A DNA stretch of 32,116 nt from a candidate division CSSED10-310 bacterium (GTDB lineage: Bacteria; CSSED10-310), in the NCBI GenBank assembly GCA_003558985.1, contig PWNJ01000096.1, positions 1 through 32,116 on the forward strand. The letters are read 5' to 3'. The notes under the pieces were generated by a model that was not told where the DNA came from, ran no database searches, and saw only the letters and a list, made by a program, of their open reading frames with translations. Every line of letters starts with the position of its first letter. Within the stretch, counting starts at the first letter, position 1. Position numbers and translations under genes: made by a program. Positions 615 to 30,426 of the stretch are shown piece by piece.

Positions 615-3167
615 CTATAGTGGATCAGCACATGAAAAGGATCCCAGCGCTGTCAGAAAAATTTCCTGAGCATCGGCCGCTGTCACAACCCCATCACCAT
701 TGCAATCCGCCCGGCATTCTTCCTCAAATGTTGGATTGTAAAGTCCCAGCGCAATCTGAAATGCCAGTTGTGCATCAGCGGCAGTAATGGCGCCATCCAT
801 ATTAACATCGCCATTATTGATACAATCCTGTCCCGGTGTCCATGTCGGCATCGGAGTCGGCGATGTTTCTGGCATGGTCTTACCGCAAATCGAAATAGCA
901 TCTATGTAAAAACCATGATCATTTATTGTCCAATCAGAACTCAAGCGCCATCGAACATAAACTTCGGGCTGACCATCGGCTATTTCTGAAATATCAAACA
1001 CCTGTTCCGTCCAGTCATTGTCCTGAGCATATCCTGACCAGATAACCGTCCAGTCCTGATTGTTATTGGAGACTTTTACATAGGCTGTATCATAATTGAC
1101 TTCATTTTTCAGATATCTGAAAAATCGAAGCTCTGCATCATACAAATTGGAGCAATCAAATGGAGTGGACGTCAATCGATAATGTGAACTGTTTGCATAA
1201 TTCCCGGTCAGGTTTGTGGCATACACATTCTGTCCAATATATGCTCCCGGAGGACCTACCGTTGGTAGACCAAACTCCCATCCCCTTTGGCCGGAATTGT
1301 CAATTGTGTACCCCGGATCGGTTTCCAAATCTTCATTATAGTAAGGACACTGATAAACAAAGTTTGAAATTTCTAAAAACACTGTGTGTTCAGGTGCGCA
1401 CAATGATTGATCCGCACTGAATACGACAGTCAGTTCCGCCAGATGTCCTTCTGGCGCTGCAGGAGATGCCTGTATTTCAAAATGAGGTATGTTTGTTGTA
1501 CCGGTACCACCGTCAGGAATATCACCTATTTCAGCAAAGCCGTTCAGAACAACAAGATGTGGATCTGAACTGGTCAGGGTTGCTGTTACATTTGTTGTCG
1601 CTCCAACCGACATTGCTTCCAGCTCAAGATTGGCATACTCACCAATTCCAATCACATTTTTCGTTTCACCTTCCCAGTCATGTACTGTCAAACTTCCCGG
1701 AAACACACCATAACTTCCCTGTGGAACAATCCATATTGTCTGTTCAACCCGCTCTGAGCCAACTGATATTGGCACAACTGTAGTACCGTAGCCATCGGCC
1801 GAGGCAATCACATTGTAATTCCCGGGAAGCACCGGATACCAGTATCTACCGAATAAGTCTGTTATTCTTGGTGACTCATCAGCGGTCAACGGAACTTCCA
1901 GAAGACTGAAATCCGCTCCTTCAATCGGTTCACCAGTGCATGCATCTACGATATGGCCCGTTATCATGGGTCCTTCAAGACGATTCAGCAGATATTGCCA
2001 TCCAGGACGATTCCGTTCAACTGTAATATCTCGCCATTGATGATAACCCGGCAAAAATCCCTGAGCGCTGGAATTCAATTCTACGACATAGGGAAACGTG
2101 CCCAATTCGGCATAATACCAGTCTATATCACCGCCATCGACCGCATAAAGGAGTTCCCAGCAGGTTCCGGGTGCATATCCCATTGTGCCATTGTCACGTT
2201 CGATCAAAGCAGCCATTTCCTGACCAATAGCGGCCATTGCCTGATGATCAGGTGTTACTGACCCCTGACATCCATACGGATATATCACAAGTTCGGAAAA
2301 CGAATGATAGGAAATGCTGAACACCGGCCTGATCTCTTCAGCCAGACTCATTATATGACTGACCGTATAGGACTGCCCTGGAAACTCGCCACGGTAAGTA
2401 TCGTTTGACGGGCTTCCGGAACTTCCGTTGCATGATCCCCAAAAAGCAGGAAAATTTCGGTTGGGATCAATCCCGTAACTTGACGAACCCGGAGGAGGCG
2501 GATGACGATCCTTGCGCCACATATTGAAGTTGTTGAACACATAGTTAATTCCATCCAGGTTTGCTTGAGGCATCACCCATATTTCATACGAATCAACCCA
2601 GTGGGTGACCTGTGGGTCCTCACCATAATTGTTCAGCAGGTATTCCAGAATATCCATAACAACTTCACCGCTCATCACTTCACGGGCGTGCTGCTGACCA
2701 TTAAAAAACACCGTCAACTTGTCCAGATCCTGATCCGCATCTTTGGAAATTTTCATCGCATATATGGTCCGGCCTTTTTCCGTATCACCTACTGGCACCA
2801 GCTTTGTAATATCAGGAAAAATCGAGGCGTACATTTGCATGATTGCTTCTGTTTCATGAGGTTCAAGATATTCCGGATCAACCCGTATCTCTTGTCCGGG
2901 AAATTGAATCACCTCAACCGGATACGTCTTATCAATATACGGAAATTTGTCCCTGTGGATAATCAGATCTATTTTTAACTCATGCAGATCAACACCGGGA
3001 ATATCCAGCCCGGCTTCGTTGAAATCCTTTAGCGCACTCCGAAAAGACGCTCTGTTGTCAAAAGAAATCCGAACCCGGAAATACTGATCAGTCAGTTGCT
3101 CAGAATGCATACCCGATGTAACAAAAATCAACATAAGTATCACTAGTAAAACCGTCTTTTTTAGCAT
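615..3167 (-). CDS. Secreted M14 zinc carboxypeptidase with C-terminal dockerin-like tag
   Basis: An 850-residue exported metallocarboxypeptidase, expected to remove C-terminal residues from peptides outside the cell. I start it at the ATG at 3167, which has a GGAAGGAG site just upstream; a longer reading from 3200 lacks one. Order: signal peptide (about 1-22), propeptide-like region (about 25-110), M14 catalytic domain (about 112-395), a carboxypeptidase-regulatory beta-sandwich (about 402-475), a further beta-sandwich, an immune-inhibitor-A/MAM-like domain (about 610-765), a Pro/Thr linker, then a dockerin-like pair (about 786-845). Zinc ligands are H160 and E163 (HARE) and H288 (SYHSFSELVIYPYG). 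N236/R237 (DPNRNF) fit the substrate-binding pair, and E363 (VVELN) the catalytic Glu. Each dockerin repeat keeps the D-x-N-x-D-G calcium loop, and four Cys lie in and around the pair. Family is certain; substrate preference is not. Confidence 0.93.
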   Translation of the reverse strand: MLKKTVLLVILMLIFVTSGMHSEQLTDQYFRVRISFDNRASFRSALKDFNEAGLDIPGVDLHELKIDLIIHRDKFPYIDKTYPVEVIQFPGQEIRVDPEYLEPHETEAIMQMYASIFPDITKLVPVGDTEKGRTIYAMKISKDADQDLDKLTVFFNGQQHAREVMSGEVVMDILEYLLNNYGEDPQVTHWVDSYEIWVMPQANLDGINYVFNNFNMWRKDRHPPPPGSSSYGIDPNRNFPAFWGSCNGSSGSPSNDTYRGEFPGQSYTVSHIMSLAEEIRPVFSISYHSFSELVIYPYGCQGSVTPDHQAMAAIGQEMAALIERDNGTMGYAPGTCWELLYAVDGGDIDWYYAELGTFPYVVELNSSAQGFLPGYHQWRDITVERNRPGWQYLLNRLEGPMITGHIVDACTGEPIEGADFSLLEVPLTADESPRITDLFGRYWYPVLPGNYNVIASADGYGTTVVPISVGSERVEQTIWIVPQGSYGVFPGSLTVHDWEGETKNVIGIGEYANLELEAMSVGATTNVTATLTSSDPHLVVLNGFAEIGDIPDGGTGTTNIPHFEIQASPAAPEGHLAELTVVFSADQSLCAPEHTVFLEISNFVYQCPYYNEDLETDPGYTIDNSGQRGWEFGLPTVGPPGAYIGQNVYATNLTGNYANSSHYRLTSTPFDCSNLYDAELRFFRYLKNEVNYDTAYVKVSNNNQDWTVIWSGYAQDNDWTEQVFDISEIADGQPEVYVRWRLSSDWTINDHGFYIDAISICGKTMPETSPTPMPTWTPGQDCINNGDVNMDGAITAADAQLAFQIALGLYNPTFEEECRADCNGDGVVTAADAQEIFLTALGSFSCADPL

Positions 3168-3296
3168 TGAAAACTCCTTCCTTCTACAAAAAAGATTCAT
3201 TTTTGTTGTTTACCTGCAATCAGCTGCATAACACCATATTCAATTGATGCAATTTTAATACCGATAACGCTTCAGTATCCCGCGTAATTATCGACC

Positions 3297-7486: not shown

Positions 7487-10400
7487 TTAGTTTAAGGAAA
7501 GTTTTTCTGCCGGATCCGTTACTGCATCGATTTTCATAGCATAACTGTTGCCCTTGGCAATATCCTGATCCGAAATAATATGGACGTCAAGCAATCCTTC
7601 CGGTTTTTTTATACCCGTCCTTAAATAATTAATCTCGGCCAGGCACAGACTCCATCCATCAAGCCATAACTCCAGTTCACGACGCTGTATTGGATCTCCT
7701 CGAAAATGGATCAGCAAATTGATATCACTCGATGGTACTGCAGTTCGATTTTTAGTGCTACCAAATATATAAACTGCCTCAATCCCTTTTGTTTTTTCCG
7801 CTGACTGTCTTGCTATTTTAAGGGCCATACTCATACGCCAGCGCCAGTGATCCTCAAGTGGACTGTCCAATATATCCGTTTCCTCATCAATGTGATCTCC
7901 CGATTCAACTCCGGTTCCCAAAAACCCAACTGCCTGATCCTGATCCGCATTCGTCAAAATTCGTAAAAATTGTCCCTGGGTACTTGCCGGGACATCAATA
8001 ATTCTCAATGTGTGACTCAGATACTCATATTCAGGAACAATATCCTTCAAGATGTTTTTGGAATTTTTAAGAAATGACCAATTGAAATCAACTCCCTCAT
8101 CGTCCGGATACAAAGGTAGATAGCGAATGTTTGCTTCGACAAGATCCTGAAAGAAATGGGTCCCGAATGACAGTTCCGGAACATATTTTCCTTTTTTCAA
8201 TGCAACTTCAATCAAAGCGGCCGTGTTGTTAAAATCGGAATATGTCACGCTGACTCCCAGCTTGATATCTCCACGGCTACCCCAACGTCCCGGCCCAATA
8301 AGAATGAACTGTCTTTTGGGCAACACTTTGTTAAGTTTGGCGACTGCCCTTCCAACAGCTTTCATGTCATCAATAGTTGTAAGGCTGTTATATCCTTCGG
8401 GATCAACATAAACGATGTGTGATATCGGTGGAATCAACCCATTTGTAACATATTTGTTTGCTGAAAAAATGACTTTATCAGTTGGAATATTTTTCGGTAT
8501 CACCGACCCTTTTGTGCCCGAACTATAGCTTTGGGGTCTGCACTGCAATAAATAGAAATGTTTTCCATCTGAGGCAAACTCAATGTCAACAGGAGTTCCG
8601 ATTTTTTCTTTAAGGGTATTTAAAATCGAGTAGAGCAGTGTTATGAAATTAGTACGTTCTCTCAAACCATCAAACGATACAACGAGATCCTCTTTTTGAA
8701 AATCGGTCATGGCGGTTATCGGCCGAAGCATGTTGCGTTCATAAGTTGACATTACCGTATTGATTCCCGGTAATTCACGACCGTATTCTTTAATAAAGTC
8801 TTGTATATCAATTGTTTCAAATTGATTTGTTTTCATGTTGATCACATCCAGTTTCTGAGGTGCATATCTGGCAGTATCATCAGGAGTGATATTCACTTTT
8901 AATGCTGGTTTGCCTGGTGCGATCAAAACGGGGTAATCACTACTTGTTCTGTCAACTGCCCGAGTTCCCAGCCCTGGAACCATTCTTATTAAACCGTCAT
9001 TTCTGTGTATTCTGGGTGACCAGCGGAATTCATTATTGCTGAAAGCAACACCAGCATATGTGGGTAAAAAATAAGGGCCTGCCTTGTGACCAACAACCTC
9101 CTGAATCAATATTCCCATCTCTTCATAAAAATCCAGTAAGCCCCGCTCAGCACGATATTCAATCGGGTCAGGACCAAATGTTGACGCATATACTTCAGCG
9201 ATCGCATCCGTAAGAGCTTCCAAACGTTCTTGTCTGGAACCCTGATTTGCAAGAAACAGACTTTTGTATTTACCTGAAAAAGATGTCCCAAGTCTGTCTT
9301 CAAGCAGACTTGAGCTTCTGACAATAATTGGCTTTTCACCAATATCGTCCAGCGCCAGCGATAATCCACGCAAAATATCCGGTGGAAAATATGAGTTTTT
9401 AAACAACTGTATGATTTGGGGATATTCCATTCTGACCTGGTCGATTTCCTTGTATTTTTGTTCGGTGACATCTTCGAGGTTATTATAGTGTATAAACGTC
9501 GGCAACCCATCCGAAGACACGTACCATGTTTTCGGCATTTTCAAAGTTGAGTAAAGCTTTTCCGCCTGATCAGACTTGACAAGAATGTTATATGCCAGAA
9601 ACAGTCCAGCGCTTTTTCCTCCAAGTTTTCCGTGACTCCCCATAGGATATATGATTTTCTGAACAAGGCCAAAGAAATCTTCAATATCAATAAAATTTTT
9701 AGCGATGTTTATGAAATCAAGCTGCTCAAAAAAGAAGTGGCGTATCATTGAAACACGCAATCCCATGTCGGTGTGATCCGAAAGCTTGAAGCCATCATTC
9801 GAACTGATAAAATGATATCGGGTAACAGCTTCGACTATTTCGCTCATTGTGGAATCGTATTTACCAAGAACCTGAACAATATCAGCAGCTTTTTCTTCCT
9901 GAATCCATTTTTTGACACATATCAGTATTTCATCATCTGTCAAAATGTCGTCTGCCAGTGAAAACACTGTAGCAGCAATTTCAACCATACCTGTCAGGGT
10001 TCGCTTTTGTAACGGCTGATTCATGTCTGCATCCTGTATCAGCAGTATTTCATTACGCGAAAACGATTGAATTAACTCACCCGCTTTTTTATGACCTGAC
10101 CAGACCAGATAATTCGCCAGTTTTCTGGCTATTCTTGAATACAACTTTTGATCTGTGTTTTTCAGAAGGTCTACAATGATAACCCATTCTTTACGAATCA
10201 CACTTTTGGCATCACCATTTAACGCTTCCGCTTCTGTCAATGCCTTCTGATACTCAAACTGAAATATCGCATGCGCAAGCCGTTCACCAATTGTCTTCAG
10301 CAGTTGCTTTTCCTGTTTTAAAAACGGGTTGCTACCCATTTCATCATGACGTTTTCTATAAAATACCTCTATCTTTCCCAGAATTTTACCGTAGATCGAT

Positions 10401-10663
10401 ATAGGCGCTTCCAAACACCAGGGTGTTTTGGGGTTATCTTTCAAACTAATAACCTCACCCTTGTATATTATGCGTCCACAGCAGTCATCCGGGTAAAGAA
10501 AACCTCCGGGTATAACTTTGATAACTCTCTTGAATAAACCTGACAGAGACGATGTATGCTTCTCATTCAGAAGCGCTTCAATCTTATACAGACAGTCCAG
10601 CTCTTTGGTTCTTTCACGCAAATCACGAAAAATACTTTTGACAGAACCATTTTTGTTATCCAT
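7487..10663 (-). CDS. GAF + PEP/pyruvate-binding ATP-grasp + nucleotidyltransferase-like multidomain protein
   Basis: A 1058-residue protein of unknown reaction. Residues about 20-135 look like a GAF sensor domain and 155-330 are helical. Residues about 335-715 match the N-terminal nucleotide-binding half of PEP synthase / pyruvate phosphate dikinase: GKLGGKSAGL (345-354), VRSSSLLEDR (448-457) and the closing LLQCRPQ (705-711). The phosphohistidine swivel domain and PEP-binding barrel that normally follow are absent. Instead there is a domain (about 745-860) with GPGRWGS (790-796) and FGTHFF (833-838) that is shared with the neighbour at 10656-12404. The C-terminus (about 955-1058) is a nucleotidyltransferase fold with GSTKNR and SSDIN, where Asn982 replaces the usual second Asp. 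The start ATG overlaps the stop of the upstream gene by 8 nt (ATGGATAA), so translation is probably coupled. Confidence 0.85.
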   Translation of the reverse strand: MDNKNGSVKSIFRDLRERTKELDCLYKIEALLNEKHTSSLSGLFKRVIKVIPGGFLYPDDCCGRIIYKGEVISLKDNPKTPWCLEAPISIYGKILGKIEVFYRKRHDEMGSNPFLKQEKQLLKTIGERLAHAIFQFEYQKALTEAEALNGDAKSVIRKEWVIIVDLLKNTDQKLYSRIARKLANYLVWSGHKKAGELIQSFSRNEILLIQDADMNQPLQKRTLTGMVEIAATVFSLADDILTDDEILICVKKWIQEEKAADIVQVLGKYDSTMSEIVEAVTRYHFISSNDGFKLSDHTDMGLRVSMIRHFFFEQLDFINIAKNFIDIEDFFGLVQKIIYPMGSHGKLGGKSAGLFLAYNILVKSDQAEKLYSTLKMPKTWYVSSDGLPTFIHYNNLEDVTEQKYKEIDQVRMEYPQIIQLFKNSYFPPDILRGLSLALDDIGEKPIIVRSSSLLEDRLGTSFSGKYKSLFLANQGSRQERLEALTDAIAEVYASTFGPDPIEYRAERGLLDFYEEMGILIQEVVGHKAGPYFLPTYAGVAFSNNEFRWSPRIHRNDGLIRMVPGLGTRAVDRTSSDYPVLIAPGKPALKVNITPDDTARYAPQKLDVINMKTNQFETIDIQDFIKEYGRELPGINTVMSTYERNMLRPITAMTDFQKEDLVVSFDGLRERTNFITLLYSILNTLKEKIGTPVDIEFASDGKHFYLLQCRPQSYSSGTKGSVIPKNIPTDKVIFSANKYVTNGLIPPISHIVYVDPEGYNSLTTIDDMKAVGRAVAKLNKVLPKRQFILIGPGRWGSRGDIKLGVSVTYSDFNNTAALIEVALKKGKYVPELSFGTHFFQDLVEANIRYLPLYPDDEGVDFNWSFLKNSKNILKDIVPEYEYLSHTLRIIDVPASTQGQFLRILTNADQDQAVGFLGTGVESGDHIDEETDILDSPLEDHWRWRMSMALKIARQSAEKTKGIEAVYIFGSTKNRTAVPSSDINLLIHFRGDPIQRRELELWLDGWSLCLAEINYLRTGIKKPEGLLDVHIISDQDIAKGNSYAMKIDAVTDPAEKLSLN

Positions 10664-12404
10664 ACCGTATCACTCCCCTGCCTTGTCTCCCGTCAATTGT
10701 AACTGACAATTCATCGGCCAGTTCAATATGCCGGGTAAACTGCAAATCTTCACTCGGAACATGCTGTTCCAGCCAATTCCAGTCTATCTTGTACTTGCCA
10801 TCGTGGCGAACAGTAAAGTATGCGACCTGAAATGACGAAAGATTGTGGAAAAAATGACTGCCCTGGCTGGGGTCAACATACATGTTCGGCAATGAAGCCT
10901 CAACAATAACCCGCGCTCGATTAATCTGACCCCAGTTTACCGGAATACCCAACCAGTGATCTGAACTGCCCCAGCGACCAAAACCGATTAACAGATATTT
11001 CCGGCCGGTTTTAAGAAACTTCCTGTTAATCTGCTCCAGCTCACGCGCTATGGCAGGAGTATTTTTTGATTCGAATATATCCGGTTTAACATACACAATA
11101 TCTTTAAGACCCTTGACAGTACCATTACCCATTACACTGTTTGAAGCAGCCAAAATATTAGTTGATGACATTTCTTCCAGGGTAACATCCAATATTTCAT
11201 CTGATACCACCATTGGACGTGCCTGAAGCAAACCAAAGTTTACAGGGGTTTGCAAATCTTTCTCAAACGTAAGGGCAAACTCAATTTCGACTTTCGCATT
11301 CAACGCATCCTCACACAAATGTACTATATCCTTTAGACAACGGTTGAGCGGGAATACTTCCAGATCCAGAGTCGGTGCAAATGTAAGAACTTTAGCGCCG
11401 TGGTCCTCATACCCAGCCACCATTCTGTCTGACTGGTGATCATAGGTTGAAACGATATGAGTTAAAACATTGTCATAGTCCGCAGTTTTCAAATCCGATT
11501 CAACCAGATATTCAGTCTCCTTTAAAGGATCATGTTCTGTCGGTCTTCCCAGATTAACTGCCCAGAATCTATTTTGCGTATATTTAACCATATCACCTGG
11601 ACCAGAGAAAGGAGGTCGTGATCTGGGGAATGCCGGGGAGTATGACCATGTAAAACCACCGTCAACTATAGCTTTTCCAAGTCCAAGGGCCAGGTTGACA
11701 ACACCCTGTTCCGGCTTTGCTCTTCCAACAGGATAAAAATTATATGATTTGGCAACACCGGATATATTGGGATAATATCGTGCATAATGCTGTGATCCCA
11801 TAACCTCTTGTATAATAACACACATTTTTTCATCATGAATGGAGTGATTTGTACCAGCGATATAGTTTTTAGCCTGTCGAAAATATGTTGACGCATAAAC
11901 ATATTTAACTGCTTCATACAAACTTCGAAATCTGCTTTGCAAATCCGGTTGATTGTTTGGAATCATCTTAGTGGCATAAATACCTGCAAATGGTTCGTAC
12001 ATGGCATCCTCAAGAAGACTGGAAGATCTGACAGCCAGGGGACATCTGAATTTTTCAAGAAGCGATCGTAAATCACCGGACAATGCAGGGGGTAACTCAG
12101 TATTCAGGAAATGATGTGCCATTCTGTCATCAGGTATGTCAGAGGCGGCGATATCGTGAAGATTATTCAGATTCATGAATGCGTCAAAGCAGTCTGATGC
12201 AAGCACCGTGAACCGGGGTATTTGAACATCGATATTGCTATATTTTTTTGAAGGGAATTTTGTAAGAACTTTTTCGTTAAGAAGGACTAATCCGGCGGCT
12301 TTGCCGCCAATTTTCCCCGTCCCAATCACAGTTATTGTTTTTCTGCCGTTGGAAGATCTCCGATCAAAAACCGGAAATTTCGATCGGGACGAGGAGTCAG
12401 TCAT
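10656..12404 (-). CDS. PEP/pyruvate-binding ATP-grasp protein lacking the phosphotransfer domains
   Basis: A 582-residue paralog of the core of the 7487-10663 protein. The ATP-grasp part (about 25-400) shows GKIGGKAAGL (30-39), VRSSSLLEDA (125-134), IIQEVMG (197-203) and LLQARP (392-397), the signatures of the PEP synthase / PPDK nucleotide-binding half. The chain ends shortly after a C-terminal domain (about 432-545) with GFGRWGS (474-480) and SQGSHFF (513-519). No catalytic phosphohistidine domain and no PEP-binding barrel follow, so it cannot be a complete PEP synthase (which has about 800 residues). An ATP-dependent phosphotransfer or ligation to an unknown acceptor is possible. It starts 16 nt after the glutamate dehydrogenase stop without a clear ribosome binding site, which suggests coupled translation within one operon. 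Confidence 0.85.
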   Translation of the reverse strand: MTDSSSRSKFPVFDRRSSNGRKTITVIGTGKIGGKAAGLVLLNEKVLTKFPSKKYSNIDVQIPRFTVLASDCFDAFMNLNNLHDIAASDIPDDRMAHHFLNTELPPALSGDLRSLLEKFRCPLAVRSSSLLEDAMYEPFAGIYATKMIPNNQPDLQSRFRSLYEAVKYVYASTYFRQAKNYIAGTNHSIHDEKMCVIIQEVMGSQHYARYYPNISGVAKSYNFYPVGRAKPEQGVVNLALGLGKAIVDGGFTWSYSPAFPRSRPPFSGPGDMVKYTQNRFWAVNLGRPTEHDPLKETEYLVESDLKTADYDNVLTHIVSTYDHQSDRMVAGYEDHGAKVLTFAPTLDLEVFPLNRCLKDIVHLCEDALNAKVEIEFALTFEKDLQTPVNFGLLQARPMVVSDEILDVTLEEMSSTNILAASNSVMGNGTVKGLKDIVYVKPDIFESKNTPAIARELEQINRKFLKTGRKYLLIGFGRWGSSDHWLGIPVNWGQINRARVIVEASLPNMYVDPSQGSHFFHNLSSFQVAYFTVRHDGKYKIDWNWLEQHVPSEDLQFTRHIELADELSVTIDGRQGRGVIRYG

Positions 12405-12420: not shown

Positions 12421-13710
12421 TTAAACCCAGCCGCGATCCTTGCACGCCTGGGCAACACGATTGATCGCGATAACATACGCTGCATCGCGCATGTAAATTT
12501 TATGTTTTTTTGCCAGTTCACTAACAGCAATAAATGCTGCTGTCATTTTTGTATCCAGTCTGCTGAGAACTTCATCTTTTTCCCAGTAGTAATTCATATT
12601 ACATTGTACCTGTTCAAAGTAACTGCATGTGACGCCGCCTGCATTTGCCAGAAAATCCGGAACTACAAATATTCCTTTTTCTTCGATCACTTTGTCGGCT
12701 TCCGGAGTTGTTGGTCCATTTGCGCCTTCTGCAATCATCTTTACGCAGTCTTTAATTCTGTTTACATTGTCTGCATTGATCTGGTTTTCCAAAGCACAAG
12801 GCATCAATATATCAACTTCCTGCTCTATCCAGGCATCTCCCGGCAGAACTTCATATCCGATTTCTGCTGCCTTTTCCTTGTCAATACCACCGAATCGATT
12901 GGTTATCTTCATCAATTCATCCATGTTGATACCACTTGATTTTCTGAATGCATAGGAACACTGGTCTTCCTGATCCCAACATGACACACAGATGACTTTT
13001 CCACCCATTTGTGTATAAAGACGGATGGCAAACTGCGCAACATTACCGAACCCCTGTAACGATGCTACAGTGTCTTCAGGTCGAATACCCAATTCTTTCA
13101 AAGCTTCACGAACAGTATAGATCAAACCGTATCCGGTTGCTTCCTTCCTGCCCAGTGAGCCACCCATGCCAACCGGTTTGCCGGTAATAAATCCGGGATA
13201 CTTTGCGCCATGAATCGTTTCAAACTCGTCAAGCATCCACAACATGTGCTGGGCGCTTGACATAACATCGGGCGCCGGCACATCGTTTAACGGCCCAACA
13301 TTTTTAGCCAACTGTCTGACCCATCCGCGACACAAACGTTCCTGTTCATTATCACTAAGATTGTGTGGATCACAAATAATACCGCCTTTGCCTCCACCCA
13401 ATGGAATGTTGACAACTGCAGTTTTCCAGGTCATCCACATTGACAGCGCGCGAACCGTGTCAATTGTTTCTTGCGGGTGAAAACGTATACCGCCCTTACA
13501 GGGGCCAAGCGCATCATTGTGCTGACATCGAAATCCCCGAAAAACCTTGACCGAACCGTCATCCATTTTTACCGGAACACTAAAATGATATTCCCGAAAA
13601 CACTCTCGTAAAAGTTCCCGTGTCGCACTATCCAAATCAAGATAGTCAGCAACCTTGTCAAATTGTGTCTGAGCCATTTCAAAAGCATTAAAAGATTTAT
13701 CGCCTGCCAT
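12421..13710 (-). CDS. gdhA: Glutamate dehydrogenase (Glu/Leu/Phe/Val dehydrogenase family)
   Basis: A 429-residue hexamer-type glutamate dehydrogenase, which interconverts glutamate with 2-oxoglutarate and ammonia using NAD(P). Active-site lysines are visible at K72 (PCKGGIRFHP), K96 (MTWKTAVVNIP) and K108 (PLGGGKGG), and the catalytic Asp at D148 (VPAPDVMS). The Rossmann loop GFGNVA is at 220-225. Length is normal. The ATG at 13710 follows AAGGAG by 7 nt. It is the first gene of the operon with the two PPDK-N-like proteins downstream (gap 16 nt, then an 8-nt overlap). A terminator at 13746-13776 separates it from the ferritin-like gene upstream, so it needs its own promoter; a weak TTGATG-16-GATAAT candidate overlaps that hairpin. 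With peptidase genes nearby, a catabolic role is plausible, but coenzyme choice cannot be read here. Confidence 0.96.
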   Translation of the reverse strand: MAGDKSFNAFEMAQTQFDKVADYLDLDSATRELLRECFREYHFSVPVKMDDGSVKVFRGFRCQHNDALGPCKGGIRFHPQETIDTVRALSMWMTWKTAVVNIPLGGGKGGIICDPHNLSDNEQERLCRGWVRQLAKNVGPLNDVPAPDVMSSAQHMLWMLDEFETIHGAKYPGFITGKPVGMGGSLGRKEATGYGLIYTVREALKELGIRPEDTVASLQGFGNVAQFAIRLYTQMGGKVICVSCWDQEDQCSYAFRKSSGINMDELMKITNRFGGIDKEKAAEIGYEVLPGDAWIEQEVDILMPCALENQINADNVNRIKDCVKMIAEGANGPTTPEADKVIEEKGIFVVPDFLANAGGVTCSYFEQVQCNMNYYWEKDEVLSRLDTKMTAAFIAVSELAKKHKIYMRDAAYVIAINRVAQACKDRGWV

Positions 13711-23952: not shown

Positions 23953-26919
23953 TTAGAACGCGTACCGCAACATAATGTTATAGATACGCGGCGGACCCCA
24001 GGCATTATCAGTGTTGAAAATCTCTGGTCTTCGCGGATTAAATACATCATTTCGTGATAGTACACCCTGGAAGTTGGCGATATTGATAACATCAAGCACC
24101 ACAGTCAGAGCGCCGTATCGTCCGAATTTGAATGAGTTCTGCCATGAGATATCCCATGTATTGTATCCTGGGAGCTCATAACCTCCACGACCTTCCGGAT
24201 AATACCATGCATATGCTCTATATGGAGGTCTTGCAGTCCATGTGGACGGATCATTGATATCATTATCGGGATCGTCCGGATCATAAGTATCCTGAGGCGC
24301 CATCCGTTTGCTGTAATGATATCCTGAACGATAGAAACCGTTCAGTCCAAATGACATTTCATACCAGTCGGTTATATCAAAATGGTATGTGGCAGCGATT
24401 TTCAGGTAATGACGACATGACCATGGAAGCTCACCATACAAGTTAACAGATGTCTGATATGTATCATACTGGCCGGAAAACTGTGAAACACCACTGAATC
24501 CCGCCTGCTGATTGATAACGGATCCCTGGGCACGGGAATATGTGTAACTGGCCTGAAGATTCCAGTTGTCGCGACGTGCACGGGCTGTAACTTCGTAACC
24601 GTAATAATCCCGTTTGTTACCTTCCACGTTGGTCACCCAATACAGATGTTTGGAGTAATCCCTTCCGTCATCTCTGGGATCAAACTTTTTATTGGGGTCA
24701 AGGCCTGAAAAATCATCCTTTACTCCACCCAGATAGGTCCATGTAACATTCCAGTCTTCATCAAGAAACAATCCAACATCTTCAATCATGTTTCGGGTTC
24801 TGCGGTTCGTATAGGATAAACCAACCATGAAGTTAGGCATAACTTCCTGCTGAATACCTATTTTAAATTCATCCGTGTATTCAGCCGACAGATTTGGGTC
24901 AATCAGATTCCAGTCACCCGGTTGATCCTCTGATGTAGTTCTCCAGTTGTTATCATCAAAGAAAAATTCTTCATCCGGAATACCATCTCTGTTTCTATCC
25001 GTCCACTGTGGCCCTGTGTATTCCTGACTCCTGGTGGCGTATGTGTCTGCTTCAAAGGGCTGAAACATCATCGGCAACTGCAGATCAAAGGGATTATAAA
25101 ACCGTCCCCAGAAAGCGCTGAGCGCTGTTTGACCATCGCCAAACACATCCCATGCGAAACCTATCCGAGGTGCAATCATATTGTCCAGTTTCATTGGAGC
25201 TTTTTCCTTGAAAGAACCATCAGCGTTTCTGAAAGAATCACCGCGCCATTGGCCCCATCGCCATGCCGGGACATTTTTATCCCCATCATCGTTTTTATAG
25301 GTGACCGTTTCGTACCTGACTCCCAGATTCAGTGTAATATCATCTGTTATGTACCAGTCATCCTGAATATAGAATGCCAGATAATCGCCTTTGACAAATG
25401 CAGATCCTTCGTTCAAATAAACTGATCTGGTCGCATCAGTGCCGAAATAATAGGAGCCGTCTTCGGAAGGATTCTGGGTAATTGTATAAGTAGCGCCACC
25501 CGGAACGAAGATAATCGATTCACGTTCCAGCCAGTGGAGTTCGATACCGGTTTTCCATTCATGAGATCCCATCAGATCATCAATGAAATAACTGGCGTTT
25601 GCGGTGAACTGCATTCGGTCACGCAAGTCTTCGCGCCAGTTTCCGTAGTTGTTATAACTCTGTCTGTAATAAGTGTCGAAGAAATTGGGTGATGTTGCAT
25701 CTCCATCAGCGGGAATATCATTAATAAACCCTTCTGCAACACCGAATCGAGATACAAAAAAGAGGTTTGAGCTATACAGCCATGTCCATTCCAGACTATA
25801 GAAAGGACCACCCTGTTCACCGGTGCCATATGCTTCGGGCGTAGTATTCGTGCCACCAAATCTGTTAATTATTTCAGCGTCTTCACCTGAATAGGCAAAA
25901 ACAAATTTATGCTCCTGCATTGGCTGATAGGTAATTTTTGCATAGGGCAGATAAAATTCTCTATCCTGATTAATTCTTACCAGTTGCGATGGGTCTTCTG
26001 AGTCAGCGCCATATGAGCCGATTGTGAAACCTTCTCCATCGGTTACCGTAAGACTGTAAGTTACCATGAACCAGAGTTTATCCTGAATAATCGGTCCATC
26101 CAGCGTTATTGCATACTCGTTTCGCAGAAACTCTGACAAATTTCTTTTATCGTCATGTTTATCTTTAGAGTAATAATCACTGTCCATTCGTTTCCAGCGA
26201 AAAACACCGTGAAACTCATTGCCACCGGATTTTGTAACCGCATTGACAATACCACCCATGGAACGGCCAAACTCGGCCTTGAAACCACCGGTTTGGACCT
26301 CAACCTGTTCTATGGCGTCAGCGGCCAGATTGGCGCCGAAGGTTGACGTTACGGGGTCTGTCGTGTCAATACCGTCAAATAAATAGGTGTTATCAGTGAA
26401 TGAACCACCGGCAACCCGAACATTTCCGCCGCCTGTAACATTACCGCTCATTGTGAATGCGCTGAACATATCATCTGAGCCTGGAAGACGCTGCGACAGA
26501 TCGCGCTCAATGGTTGTTCGGCTGGTTGAGCTGGTAACATCAAGCACTTCAGCAGCTCCGGTAACTATTACGGTTTCCTCAAATGGAGCCATTTCCATTA
26601 CAAAATTGATGTTGACCGTTTGCCCCACAAGCACCCTGATGTCCGGTCGCTGAATGGTTTTCATACCCATCAGTTCAATCGTCAGAGAATACATGCCTGG
26701 AGGCAACTGAGGCATCCGGTACAGACCACTTTCGCTTGTAACATCCACCCGGGCTCCGGGAAGATTGGGCCCCGTGGCGGTAACCGTAACGCCGGGAATC
26801 GGGTTGTCATCGGGATCCGTAATTCGGCCTGCAATGACTCCCGTCAAAGAAGCGCTTACTGAACTGCTGGCAACCAGCACAACAGTAAAGCTTAACAGTA
26901 AGAGTTTTTTAAGGCACAT
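23953..26919 (-). CDS. TonB-dependent receptor, Oar-like, copy 1
   Basis: A 988-residue outer-membrane receptor for TonB-driven import. The start is the ATG at 26919 behind GGGAGG; an upstream GTG lies ahead of that site. A signal peptide (about 1-23, VSA cleavage) leads to a carboxypeptidase-regulatory beta-sandwich (about 25-112) and a TonB-box-like ETVIVTG (115-121). The plug follows (about 125-235, with GGIVNAVTKSGGNEFHG), then a large barrel ending in MLRYAF with terminal Phe. It closely matches the receptor at 27141-30134 along the whole length, differing mainly in predicted surface loops. No SusD-like partner is adjacent. Substrate unknown; Oar-type receptors are linked to large peptides or proteins, which fits the peptidases here. 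Confidence 0.93.
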   Translation of the reverse strand: MCLKKLLLLSFTVVLVASSSVSASLTGVIAGRITDPDDNPIPGVTVTATGPNLPGARVDVTSESGLYRMPQLPPGMYSLTIELMGMKTIQRPDIRVLVGQTVNINFVMEMAPFEETVIVTGAAEVLDVTSSTSRTTIERDLSQRLPGSDDMFSAFTMSGNVTGGGNVRVAGGSFTDNTYLFDGIDTTDPVTSTFGANLAADAIEQVEVQTGGFKAEFGRSMGGIVNAVTKSGGNEFHGVFRWKRMDSDYYSKDKHDDKRNLSEFLRNEYAITLDGPIIQDKLWFMVTYSLTVTDGEGFTIGSYGADSEDPSQLVRINQDREFYLPYAKITYQPMQEHKFVFAYSGEDAEIINRFGGTNTTPEAYGTGEQGGPFYSLEWTWLYSSNLFFVSRFGVAEGFINDIPADGDATSPNFFDTYYRQSYNNYGNWREDLRDRMQFTANASYFIDDLMGSHEWKTGIELHWLERESIIFVPGGATYTITQNPSEDGSYYFGTDATRSVYLNEGSAFVKGDYLAFYIQDDWYITDDITLNLGVRYETVTYKNDDGDKNVPAWRWGQWRGDSFRNADGSFKEKAPMKLDNMIAPRIGFAWDVFGDGQTALSAFWGRFYNPFDLQLPMMFQPFEADTYATRSQEYTGPQWTDRNRDGIPDEEFFFDDNNWRTTSEDQPGDWNLIDPNLSAEYTDEFKIGIQQEVMPNFMVGLSYTNRRTRNMIEDVGLFLDEDWNVTWTYLGGVKDDFSGLDPNKKFDPRDDGRDYSKHLYWVTNVEGNKRDYYGYEVTARARRDNWNLQASYTYSRAQGSVINQQAGFSGVSQFSGQYDTYQTSVNLYGELPWSCRHYLKIAATYHFDITDWYEMSFGLNGFYRSGYHYSKRMAPQDTYDPDDPDNDINDPSTWTARPPYRAYAWYYPEGRGGYELPGYNTWDISWQNSFKFGRYGALTVVLDVINIANFQGVLSRNDVFNPRRPEIFNTDNAWGPPRIYNIMLRYAF

Positions 26920-27036
26920 GAAAAAATCCTCCCTCACAATAGATGGTTTCCAATGCCAAAATTATCAGCAAACAATTTACTCAAAAACAGCCCTCATAAT
27001 TATGACATTTATAGGCCTTTTGGGGCTTTTAAAGTC

Positions 27037-27140: not shown

Positions 27141-30134
27141 TTAGAATGCGTAGCGCAGCATGATGTGATATGCACGCGGCCAGCCCCATGCATTTTCAGT
27201 ACCGAAGATGTCCGGATTGTTGGGGTTGAATGTGTCAACTTCGCTCAGAATACCCTGGAAGTTAAAGATATTAACCACATCCAGAATGACAGTCAGAGCG
27301 CCATAGCGGCCGAATCTGAATGAGTTCTGCCATGAGATATCCCAGGTATTGTATGCGGGCAGTTCGTAACCGCCGCGACCTTCAGGAAAATGTCCCTGAT
27401 AGGTGCGGTATGGCGGACGTGCTGTCCATGTGTCGGGATCGTTGATATCATTGTCAGGATCGTCTGGATCATAGGTAAACGGTGGTGCCATTCTTTTGCT
27501 GTAATGGTAACCGCTTCTGAAAAATCCGTTCAATCCGAATGACATTTCGTACCAGTCGGTAAGATCGAAATGATATGTTCCGGCGATTTTCAGATAGTGT
27601 CGCAATGACCAGGGCAGTTCGCCGTACATATTCTGTGATACACCCCATGTATCATATCCGGCAGAAAACTGTGCTACACCACTTGAACCTTCATGAACAT
27701 TAATATGAGTTCCCTGGGCTCTTGAGTATGTATAGCTGGCCTGCAGATTCCAGTTGTCACGTCGGGCACGTGCAGTAATTTCATAGCCATAATAATCACG
27801 TCGGGCTTCTGGAACATTGGTTACCCAATACAGATGCTTGACATAATCCGGATCTTCCTGACCCGCTCTGGGTGCACGAGGATCAAATTGTCTCTCTGGA
27901 TCATGACCAGAGAAATCATCCTTGATTGCTCCCAGATATGTCCATGTAACATTTCCATCTTCATCAAAGAACAGACCGATATCTTCGATCATATTTCTGG
28001 TTCTGCGGTTCGTGTAGGATAAACCGACCATAACATTCGGCATAACTTCCTGCTGAATACCAATCAGGATTTCATCAGTGTATTCCGGTGACAGATCCGG
28101 ATCTATCAGGTTCCAGTCACCCGGTTCATCTTCTGAAGTGGTAACCCAATTGGCATCATCAAAAAAGAAATCTTCGTCCGGCACGCCATCTCTATTTCTG
28201 TCTGACCATTGTGGACCGACATATTCCTGGCTGCGGGTCGCATACTGATTAGCTTCCCATGGCTGAAACATTCCGGGTAACTGCAGATCAAAGGGGTTAT
28301 AAAAACGGCCGTAAAAACCATGAATTGAGGTTCTTCCTGTTCCAAACACATCCCATGCGAAACCAATACGCGGTGCAAGCATATTATCCATTTTCATTGG
28401 AGCTGTTTGTTTGAATGAACCATCGGGGTTCAAGTATGATTCTGCTGTCCACTGTCCCCATCGCCATGCTGGAACCTTTGAATCGCCAGCATCATTTTTG
28501 TAAGTAACGGTTTCATAGCGGAGTCCAAGATTCAATGTAATATCATCCGTGATGCTCCAGTCATCCTGAATGAAGAATGCCATGTAATCTCCGGATACTT
28601 CTGCCACTCCGGGATTGATTCGCAGTGATCGTGTTGCTTCGGTTCCGATATAGTAGTCTGGATTATCCGGGTCACCAACCGGTATCTGAGTTACGGTATA
28701 AGAAGCGCCGCCGGTCATATCATCGACAACTTCACGAACCATTTTGTGATACTCAAAGCCGGCTTTCCATTCATGTGAACCCATCAGATCATCAAGAAAA
28801 TAGCTGGCGCTACCGCCCATTTGGAAACGATCTCTGTCATCTGTCAGCCAGCGTCCGTAATTATTATAGTTTTGCTGGTAATAAGTGTCCCAAAATGCTG
28901 GTGAATCTCTGTCATTGTCACTTGGAACCACATTGATAAACCCTTCAGATGTTCCTATACGGGTAACAAAAAACAGATTAGAGCTGTACAGCCATGTCCA
29001 TTCAAGGCTGTAAAACGGACCGCCCTGTTCCTGTGTTCCAAACGCTTCCGGTGTTGTGTTCATGCCACCATAGATGTTCTTGATTTCGGCATCTTCACCG
29101 GAATAATTGAAAACGAATTTATGTTCCTGCATCGGTTGATAGGTAAATTTGAAATACGGAAGATGAAATTCCCGATCCTGGTCTATCAGGACCTGGTCGC
29201 CAGGATCCAATTGATCCGCACCATAAAAACCAATGGCTGGTCCTTCACCGTCTGTAACACTCAGACTGTAGGTGACCATGAACCAAAGTTTGTCCTGAAT
29301 AATCGGACCGTCAAAGGTACCTGCATATTCATTGCGAAGTGACTCTGGAAGCGTTCTTTTGTCTTCATGTTTGTCACTTGCACGAGTGTCGGTATCCATT
29401 CGTTTCCAGCGCAGAACTCCGTGGAATTCATTACCACCCGATTTTGTAACAGCGTTAACAATACCGCCCATTGAACGACCGAATTCCGCTTTAAAACCAC
29501 CGGTCTGAACTTCAACCTGTTCAATGGCATCTGCGGCAAGGTTAGCGCCAAACGTTGATGTTACCGGATCAGTTGTGTCAACACCGTCAAACATGTACGT
29601 GTTATCAGTGCTTGCTCCACCACCAACACGAACGTTTCCTCCACCAGTAACATTACCACTCATTGTAAATGCACTGAACATGTCATCCGAACCCGGAAGA
29701 CGCCGTGACAGATCGCGTTCAATTGTGGTTCTTGCAGAAGATGATGTTGTATCAAGTACTTGTTCCGCGCCGGTAACCACTACGGTTGTCTCAAATGGCG
29801 CCATTTCCATCACAAGATTGATGGTAGCAGTTTGCCCGACAAGAACTCTGATGTCAGGACGTTGAATGGTTTTCATACCCATCAGTTCAACCGTTAAGGT
29901 ATACATACCTGGCGGTAACTGGGGCATACGATACAATCCCGTAGAGCCGGTGACATCCACCCGCGCTCCGGGAAGATTGGGTCCCGTGGCTGTCACTGTG
30001 ACACCCGGGATCGGATTGTCATCGACATCAGTTATACGACCTGCAATAACACCCGTCAAAGACGATGCCTGCAGCGAACTGGTGCCGACCAATAAGGCCA
30101 AAAGGCCAAAGAAAAGAATTTTTCGAAGGTGCAT
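27141..30134 (-). CDS. TonB-dependent receptor, Oar-like, copy 2
   Basis: A 997-residue paralog of the receptor at 23953-26919 with the same order: signal peptide (about 1-23, LQA cleavage), carboxypeptidase-regulatory domain, TonB-box-like TTVVVTG, plug, large barrel and C-terminal MLRYAF. The ATG at 30134 follows GGGAGG by 6 nt; a TTG two codons earlier is less likely. Protein identity with copy 1 is very high through the N-terminal regulatory domain and plug. The DNA nonetheless differs at many third codon positions, so this is an old duplication under strong purifying selection. The copies differ more in segments expected to be surface loops. A TPR protein with a similar regulatory domain is encoded upstream on the same strand. 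Confidence 0.93.
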   Translation of the reverse strand: MHLRKILFFGLLALLVGTSSLQASSLTGVIAGRITDVDDNPIPGVTVTATGPNLPGARVDVTGSTGLYRMPQLPPGMYTLTVELMGMKTIQRPDIRVLVGQTATINLVMEMAPFETTVVVTGAEQVLDTTSSSARTTIERDLSRRLPGSDDMFSAFTMSGNVTGGGNVRVGGGASTDNTYMFDGVDTTDPVTSTFGANLAADAIEQVEVQTGGFKAEFGRSMGGIVNAVTKSGGNEFHGVLRWKRMDTDTRASDKHEDKRTLPESLRNEYAGTFDGPIIQDKLWFMVTYSLSVTDGEGPAIGFYGADQLDPGDQVLIDQDREFHLPYFKFTYQPMQEHKFVFNYSGEDAEIKNIYGGMNTTPEAFGTQEQGGPFYSLEWTWLYSSNLFFVTRIGTSEGFINVVPSDNDRDSPAFWDTYYQQNYNNYGRWLTDDRDRFQMGGSASYFLDDLMGSHEWKAGFEYHKMVREVVDDMTGGASYTVTQIPVGDPDNPDYYIGTEATRSLRINPGVAEVSGDYMAFFIQDDWSITDDITLNLGLRYETVTYKNDAGDSKVPAWRWGQWTAESYLNPDGSFKQTAPMKMDNMLAPRIGFAWDVFGTGRTSIHGFYGRFYNPFDLQLPGMFQPWEANQYATRSQEYVGPQWSDRNRDGVPDEDFFFDDANWVTTSEDEPGDWNLIDPDLSPEYTDEILIGIQQEVMPNVMVGLSYTNRRTRNMIEDIGLFFDEDGNVTWTYLGAIKDDFSGHDPERQFDPRAPRAGQEDPDYVKHLYWVTNVPEARRDYYGYEITARARRDNWNLQASYTYSRAQGTHINVHEGSSGVAQFSAGYDTWGVSQNMYGELPWSLRHYLKIAGTYHFDLTDWYEMSFGLNGFFRSGYHYSKRMAPPFTYDPDDPDNDINDPDTWTARPPYRTYQGHFPEGRGGYELPAYNTWDISWQNSFRFGRYGALTVILDVVNIFNFQGILSEVDTFNPNNPDIFGTENAWGWPRAYHIMLRYAF

Positions 30135-30426
30135 TTTCAACCTCCCTCAGATTAGATGTTTAATGGTTGCTTACTCCTGTAAGTATCATTTTTTTTACCA
30201 TAGATATACCGAACGCTCCTGCTGATGCAAATAATCCCTGCACCAGACCGCAAATCATAATCGTTATGTAGTTTAACAACAAGTTTTGCAAATTTCAAAA
30301 CCTTTTAACCCTGTTATGACCATGATCTAACCGAATCTTCATATCCTTCATATGGTTATCATCCATATTTTTTTCTTGAAGAACTCATACAGAGATACTC
30401 CTTTATTATGCGTATAACATAAAATA
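30135..30426. other. Longest intergenic region, leader of receptor copy 2
   Basis: These 292 bases hold no gene I can support. On the minus strand there is a possible 9-codon leader frame (30359-30388) with an AAGGAG site at a normal distance, a weak promoter candidate TTGTTG-17-TATGAT (30254-30282), and a 32-codon hydrophobic frame (30160-30258) with no ribosome binding site. A loose inverted repeat TTATG/CATAA lies just after the TPR gene but lacks a T tract. Confidence 0.4.
30254..30282 (-). promoter_or_regulatory. Possible promoter of receptor copy 2
   Basis: On the minus strand there is TTGTTG (three of six), a 17-nt spacer and TATGAT (five of six), 120 nt ahead of the receptor start. 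The -35 is weak, so transcription could also come from the TPR gene upstream. Confidence 0.3.

Follow-up and report, generated by a model that had tools for sequence, protein, structure and literature searches.

A family of ATP-grasp proteins linked to glutamate dehydrogenase and sharing a conserved C-terminal domain

Two adjacent genes, P1 and P2, in a 32,116-nucleotide stretch of DNA (the window) from a candidate division CSSED10-310 bacterium encode proteins that belong to one widespread and apparently undescribed ATP-grasp family, and the linkage of this family to the gene for glutamate dehydrogenase (GDH) is well supported. In the open-access literature, no paper was found on the GDH link, the function or the C-terminal domain (C-domain) of the family. 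The anatomy of these proteins (sensor-type inputs on some members, ATP-grasp residues all intact, one histidine that never varies, an optional nucleotidyltransferase) and their persistent GDH linkage are best fitted by an ATP-driven, sensor-coupled regulator of GDH, in which the C-domain histidine would be charged by the ATP-grasp domain. We favor this reading tentatively, at just under even confidence; we infer both its chemistry and what it modifies.

P1 (positions 7487..10663, minus strand; 1058 aa) is composed of a GAF-like domain, a helical region, a PPDK_N ATP-grasp domain, the new C-domain and a nucleotidyltransferase domain, and P2 (10656..12404, minus strand; 582 aa) of a PPDK_N ATP-grasp domain and the same C-domain. 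The P2 stop and the P1 start overlap by 8 nt (10656..10663, minus strand), and the two open reading frames are present as described in an earlier note on this DNA, which had reported adjacent, overlapping paralogs with the nucleotide-binding half of PEP synthase/PPDK. That observation was correct, but the note omitted the shared C-domain, the two terminal domains of P1 (GAF-like and nucleotidyltransferase), and the adjoining gene for GDH (12421..13710, minus strand; 429 aa; Pfam ELFV_dehydrog, 3e-73), a conserved neighbor located directly upstream of P2 on the same strand with a gap of 16 bases. Its view of P1 and P2 as bare nucleotide-binding halves found no support, since both carry the conserved C-domain in addition and P1 a further two domains. 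No Rfam RNA was found in the window. Elsewhere in the window, we observed a zinc carboxypeptidase (M14) gene with a dockerin type I domain at the C-terminus (615-3200) and two neighboring large paralogous genes of 994 and 999 aa (23953-26937 and 27141-30140).

The ATP-grasp domains of P1 (residues 346-724; 8492..9628, minus strand) and P2 (residues 31-410; 11175..12314, minus strand) were matched by Pfam PF01326 with E values of 7e-58 and 1.3e-34, respectively. In Foldseek searches, the P1 domain matched rifampin phosphotransferase (RPH, 1e-13), phosphoenolpyruvate (PEP) synthase (3e-10), and HpeI (3e-10). Nine residues (K350, R449, E455, D456, Q521, D693, E695, Q707, and R709 in P1 numbering) were invariant in 85/85 P1 orthologs, which bears out the claim of intact ATP-grasp signatures under conservation, and the catalytic residues were preserved in every subfamily. 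P1 and P2 share with PEP synthase and pyruvate phosphate dikinase (PPDK) a PPDK_N domain with the same K, R, E, Q, and R catalytic residues. However, they lack the swivel domain PF00391, with its TxxGGxxxH phosphohistidine motif, and the PEP/pyruvate barrel PF02896, and instead carry another C-domain and are linked to GDH. The lack of these two domains had already been noted, and the Pfam profile search of both proteins gave no match to PEP-utilizers or PEP-utilizers_C. A stand-alone gene for phosphotransfer domains had also been reported missing from the window; in agreement with this, a six-frame search of the genome (60% complete) matched PF00391 only on another contig (C179), in a PPDK-like ORF. 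P1 and P2 therefore combine an intact, conserved ATP-grasp domain with the lack of a classical phosphohistidine or PEP domain, which supports a different phosphate route or acceptor, as the earlier note had proposed. Its further suggestion that the proteins act with others in trans finds its strongest clue in the conserved GDH gene, which it had overlooked.

The GDH linkage was examined in two samples. The first comprised 80 P1 loci from one genome-collection scan, which were the best matches to P1 and not a random draw, and spanned Aminicenantes, Zixibacteria, Acidobacteria, Ignavibacteria, Planctomycetes, Calditrichota, Spirochaetes, and others. Sixty-four loci, counting that of the window, had 3.3 kb or more of upstream sequence; a same-strand GDH gene was located upstream of P1 in 62 of these 64, and P2 lay between GDH and P1 in 43. 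The second sample was collected with the C-domain profile alone from 337 genomes at all distances, and 66 of these (about one in five) were positive. When 57 members whose loci had been gathered by C-domain or P1 sequence alone were counted, GDH was found within 6 kb of 34 (P1, 18/22; REC type, 8/16; P1b, 8/19); some P1b and REC members had no GDH nearby. By comparison, no GDH was found at 30 loci of canonical PF00391 PEP-utilizing enzymes (0/30), for which the flanks were shorter, about 1.5 kb. In neighbor clustering, GDH was the commonest true neighbor, and the other large clusters were antisense frames. Because the genome of the window has two GDH genes, we estimate the chance of coincidental linkage at about 1%. 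The linked GDHs were of several types, 33-35% identical to each other; receiver-type members in seven loci (L054, L076, L095, L200, L210, L135, and L136) adjoin a second GDH type, about 33% identical. By eye only, a glutamate-synthase-small-subunit-like gene was seen near a family member in L172, L174, and L202, and GDH was absent nearby in the first two of these. No PII protein was found in the genome of the window, which is 60% complete.

The linkage could also reflect a metabolic step on the substrates or products of GDH. The main rival to a GDH regulator is a metabolic ATP-grasp enzyme, with P2 and P1 as subunits, that acts as a kinase or ligase on glutamate, 2-oxoglutarate or ammonia in the manner of RPH or HpeHI. 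The ATP-grasp fold of P1 is closest to those of the small-molecule dikinases RPH and HpeI, and the GDH linkage fits a pathway no less than a regulator. The split into two proteins also has its closest precedent in HpeHI, where HpeI is a free-standing ATP-grasp subunit that works with a second protein (PMC12167813). However, HpeH has a classical swivel and a substrate domain, whereas P1 and P2 are both composed of ATP-grasp and the new C-domain, no swivel protein is encoded near them, and nothing resembling the substrate domains of RPH, PEP synthase or PPDK was recognized. Furthermore, the accessory domains of the family (receiver, GAF-like, and nucleotidyltransferase) are of kinds typical of regulators, and the diversity of the linked GDHs suits a regulator that travels with its target. 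We consider a metabolic enzyme unlikely.

The C-domain, a region of ~200 aa common to P1 and P2, lies C-terminal to the ATP-grasp domain at residues 726-920 of P1 (7904..8488, minus strand) and 415-582 of P2 (10659..11162, minus strand). It is characterized by the motif GxGRWG...LG...E...SxGxHFF and measured 209-210 residues in 85/85 P1 orthologs. In both window proteins, a C-domain carrying GRWG, Glu, and SxGxHFF comes after PPDK_N, the arrangement by which, together with a neighboring GDH gene, we define the family. R793, E819, and H836 (P1 numbering) were invariant across subfamilies, and H836 was the only invariant histidine in 101/101 family members of all subfamilies. In P1 this residue (8156..8158, minus strand) starts a helix in the AlphaFold model, and its counterpart in P2 is His517. 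Pfam gave no consistent match to the C-domain in 85 members, and a fold search with the AlphaFold model (pLDDT 90.4, pTM 0.90) yielded no significant match to PDB or viral structures. Two candidates, CD38-type cyclases (Foldseek prob 0.6, 75 columns, rmsd 5) and calcineurin-like phosphoesterases in the viral structure library (prob about 0.3), were rejected as below significance.

The C-domain might alternatively be a highly diverged swivel, so that P1 and P2 would be rearranged PEP-synthase-type phosphotransferases whose third domain has been replaced by GDH or another protein acceptor. The predicted order of strands and helices resembles that of a swivel, with the invariant histidine starting a helix after a Ser/Gly loop, and the PPDK profile match (query 680-762) reaches into the linker that follows the ATP-grasp domain. 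By contrast, profile-profile comparison detected no relation to the swivel (probability 0.3%), and no swivel domain appeared among the 50 best PDB matches of the model (pTM 0.90). The GG motif of the swivel is also missing: [ST]xxGGxxxH was present in 12/12 swivel controls vs 1/167 family sequences. Four approaches (Pfam, comparison of profiles, a fold search, and the motif) were used to look for a hidden swivel domain, and none revealed one; we regard a diverged swivel as distinctly unlikely. For a GDH regulator, it is our guess, made from the conservation of His836 in a domain with no detectable kinship to the swivel in sequence or fold, that this residue may be the phosphorylation site.

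P1 contains three further regions. The N-terminal GAF-like sensor domain (residues 1-150; 10214..10663, minus strand) was recognized by weak Pfam scores together with Foldseek. When scanned alone, 14/42 members matched Pfam GAF at E ≤ 0.1 (best, 6e-4), the window protein at 0.046, short of the gathering cut-off; the P1 N-terminus matched the GAF structure 6oei/3K2N (Foldseek prob 1.00, E 0.03). It is followed by an all-helical region with an invariant Pro217 (residues 157-335; 9659..10195, minus strand), delineated by AlphaFold secondary structure and alignment. At the C-terminus is a Pol-beta/MNT-type nucleotidyltransferase domain (residues 937-1058; 7490..7855, minus strand; motif GS...SDxN...D). 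It resembles MntA (Foldseek prob 0.99), and in most orthologs it shares the GS...DxD...D pattern of MNT proteins, but it differs from them in being fused to a GDH-linked ATP-grasp protein. MntA modifies a partner protein. The window copy keeps GS, D980, and D1026 but has lost one of the three metal-binding Asp residues, the second being Asn982; this position is Asp in 76/83 P1 orthologs that have the domain. GlnE/GlnD-type enzymes, which modify glutamine synthetase and PII, are likened to P1 by analogy only. That the ATP-grasp domain merely senses ATP/AMP and the nucleotidyltransferase alone adenylylates GDH, as GlnE/GlnD act on their targets, is suggested by the Pfam NTP_transf_2/Polbeta match in 40/40 members scanned, the triad intact in most orthologs, and the kinship to a protein-modifying enzyme, but is very unlikely given the many GDH-linked members without the domain (P1b, P2, and REC types), the Asn of the window protein, and the ATP-grasp catalytic residues preserved everywhere.

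A tree of the ATP-grasp and C-domain core resolved two clades, P1/P1b and REC/P2, separated by a long, fully supported branch; its root is arbitrary, and truncated or over-long ORFs have led to wrong labels for L003, L071, and L073. P2 formed a single supported cluster nearest to the REC-type proteins, whose receiver domains exceed the Pfam cut-off. L003, on contig C143 of the same genome as the window, is a third family member, of the receiver type, truncated where the contig begins. Proteins with a REC-PPDK architecture have been recorded before (PMC5847659), and by architecture they look like the REC type of the family. The core of the REC type shares ATP-grasp and C-domain with P2, which itself lacks receivers. 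The papers searched gave neither a function nor a GDH link for REC-PPDK proteins.

The earlier note had also suggested a two-subunit complex, and this was upheld in part. A paired function is supported by the presence of P2 in the majority of loci mentioned above, by P2-P1 junctions that mostly overlap by 4 or 8 nt, by one natural P2-P1 fusion (L097), and by REC-type proteins that replace P2 beside P1 in five loci (L137, L138, L201, L202, and L204). The pairing is not obligate, as about one P1 locus in three has no P2. What looked like a second fusion, in L088, proved to be a spurious long reading frame running over GDH. Where both proteins are present, P2 and P1 probably form a complex.

As a regulator of GDH, the system would work as follows. 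The sensor domains, GAF-like on P1 and receivers on P2 relatives, would read the triggering signals. A phosphoryl group from ATP would probably be passed by the ATP-grasp domain to the invariant histidine (P1 His836, P2 His517), with the C-domain standing in for the swivel domain. Once charged, the protein would alter GDH activity by covalent modification or binding, jointly with the P1 nucleotidyltransferase where this is active. Of 64 loci with enough sequence downstream of P1, 31 have a metallophosphoesterase gene there, and the enzyme may reverse the action of P1/P2. This calcineurin-like gene is just downstream of P1 and usually convergent (L025:11192-12046 and 30 other loci); in the window, genes for a papain-like protease and lipoyl synthase come after P1, and no metallophosphoesterase was found there. 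A fuller scheme drawn by analogy with GlnE/GlnD, in which sensor-coupled ATP-grasp enzymes phosphorylate the histidine of a carrier domain and with the nucleotidyltransferase modify GDH reversibly, the metallophosphoesterase perhaps being the eraser, is possible but doubtful.

GDH connects carbon and nitrogen metabolism, and few proteins dedicated to regulating the bacterial enzyme are known. A GDH-linked family present in 66 of the 337 genomes, whose C-domain found no match among known families or folds, would indicate that a layer of nitrogen control has been overlooked, and it offers a concrete target for study. It would also give a possible use to proteins now labelled 'PEP synthase-like'.
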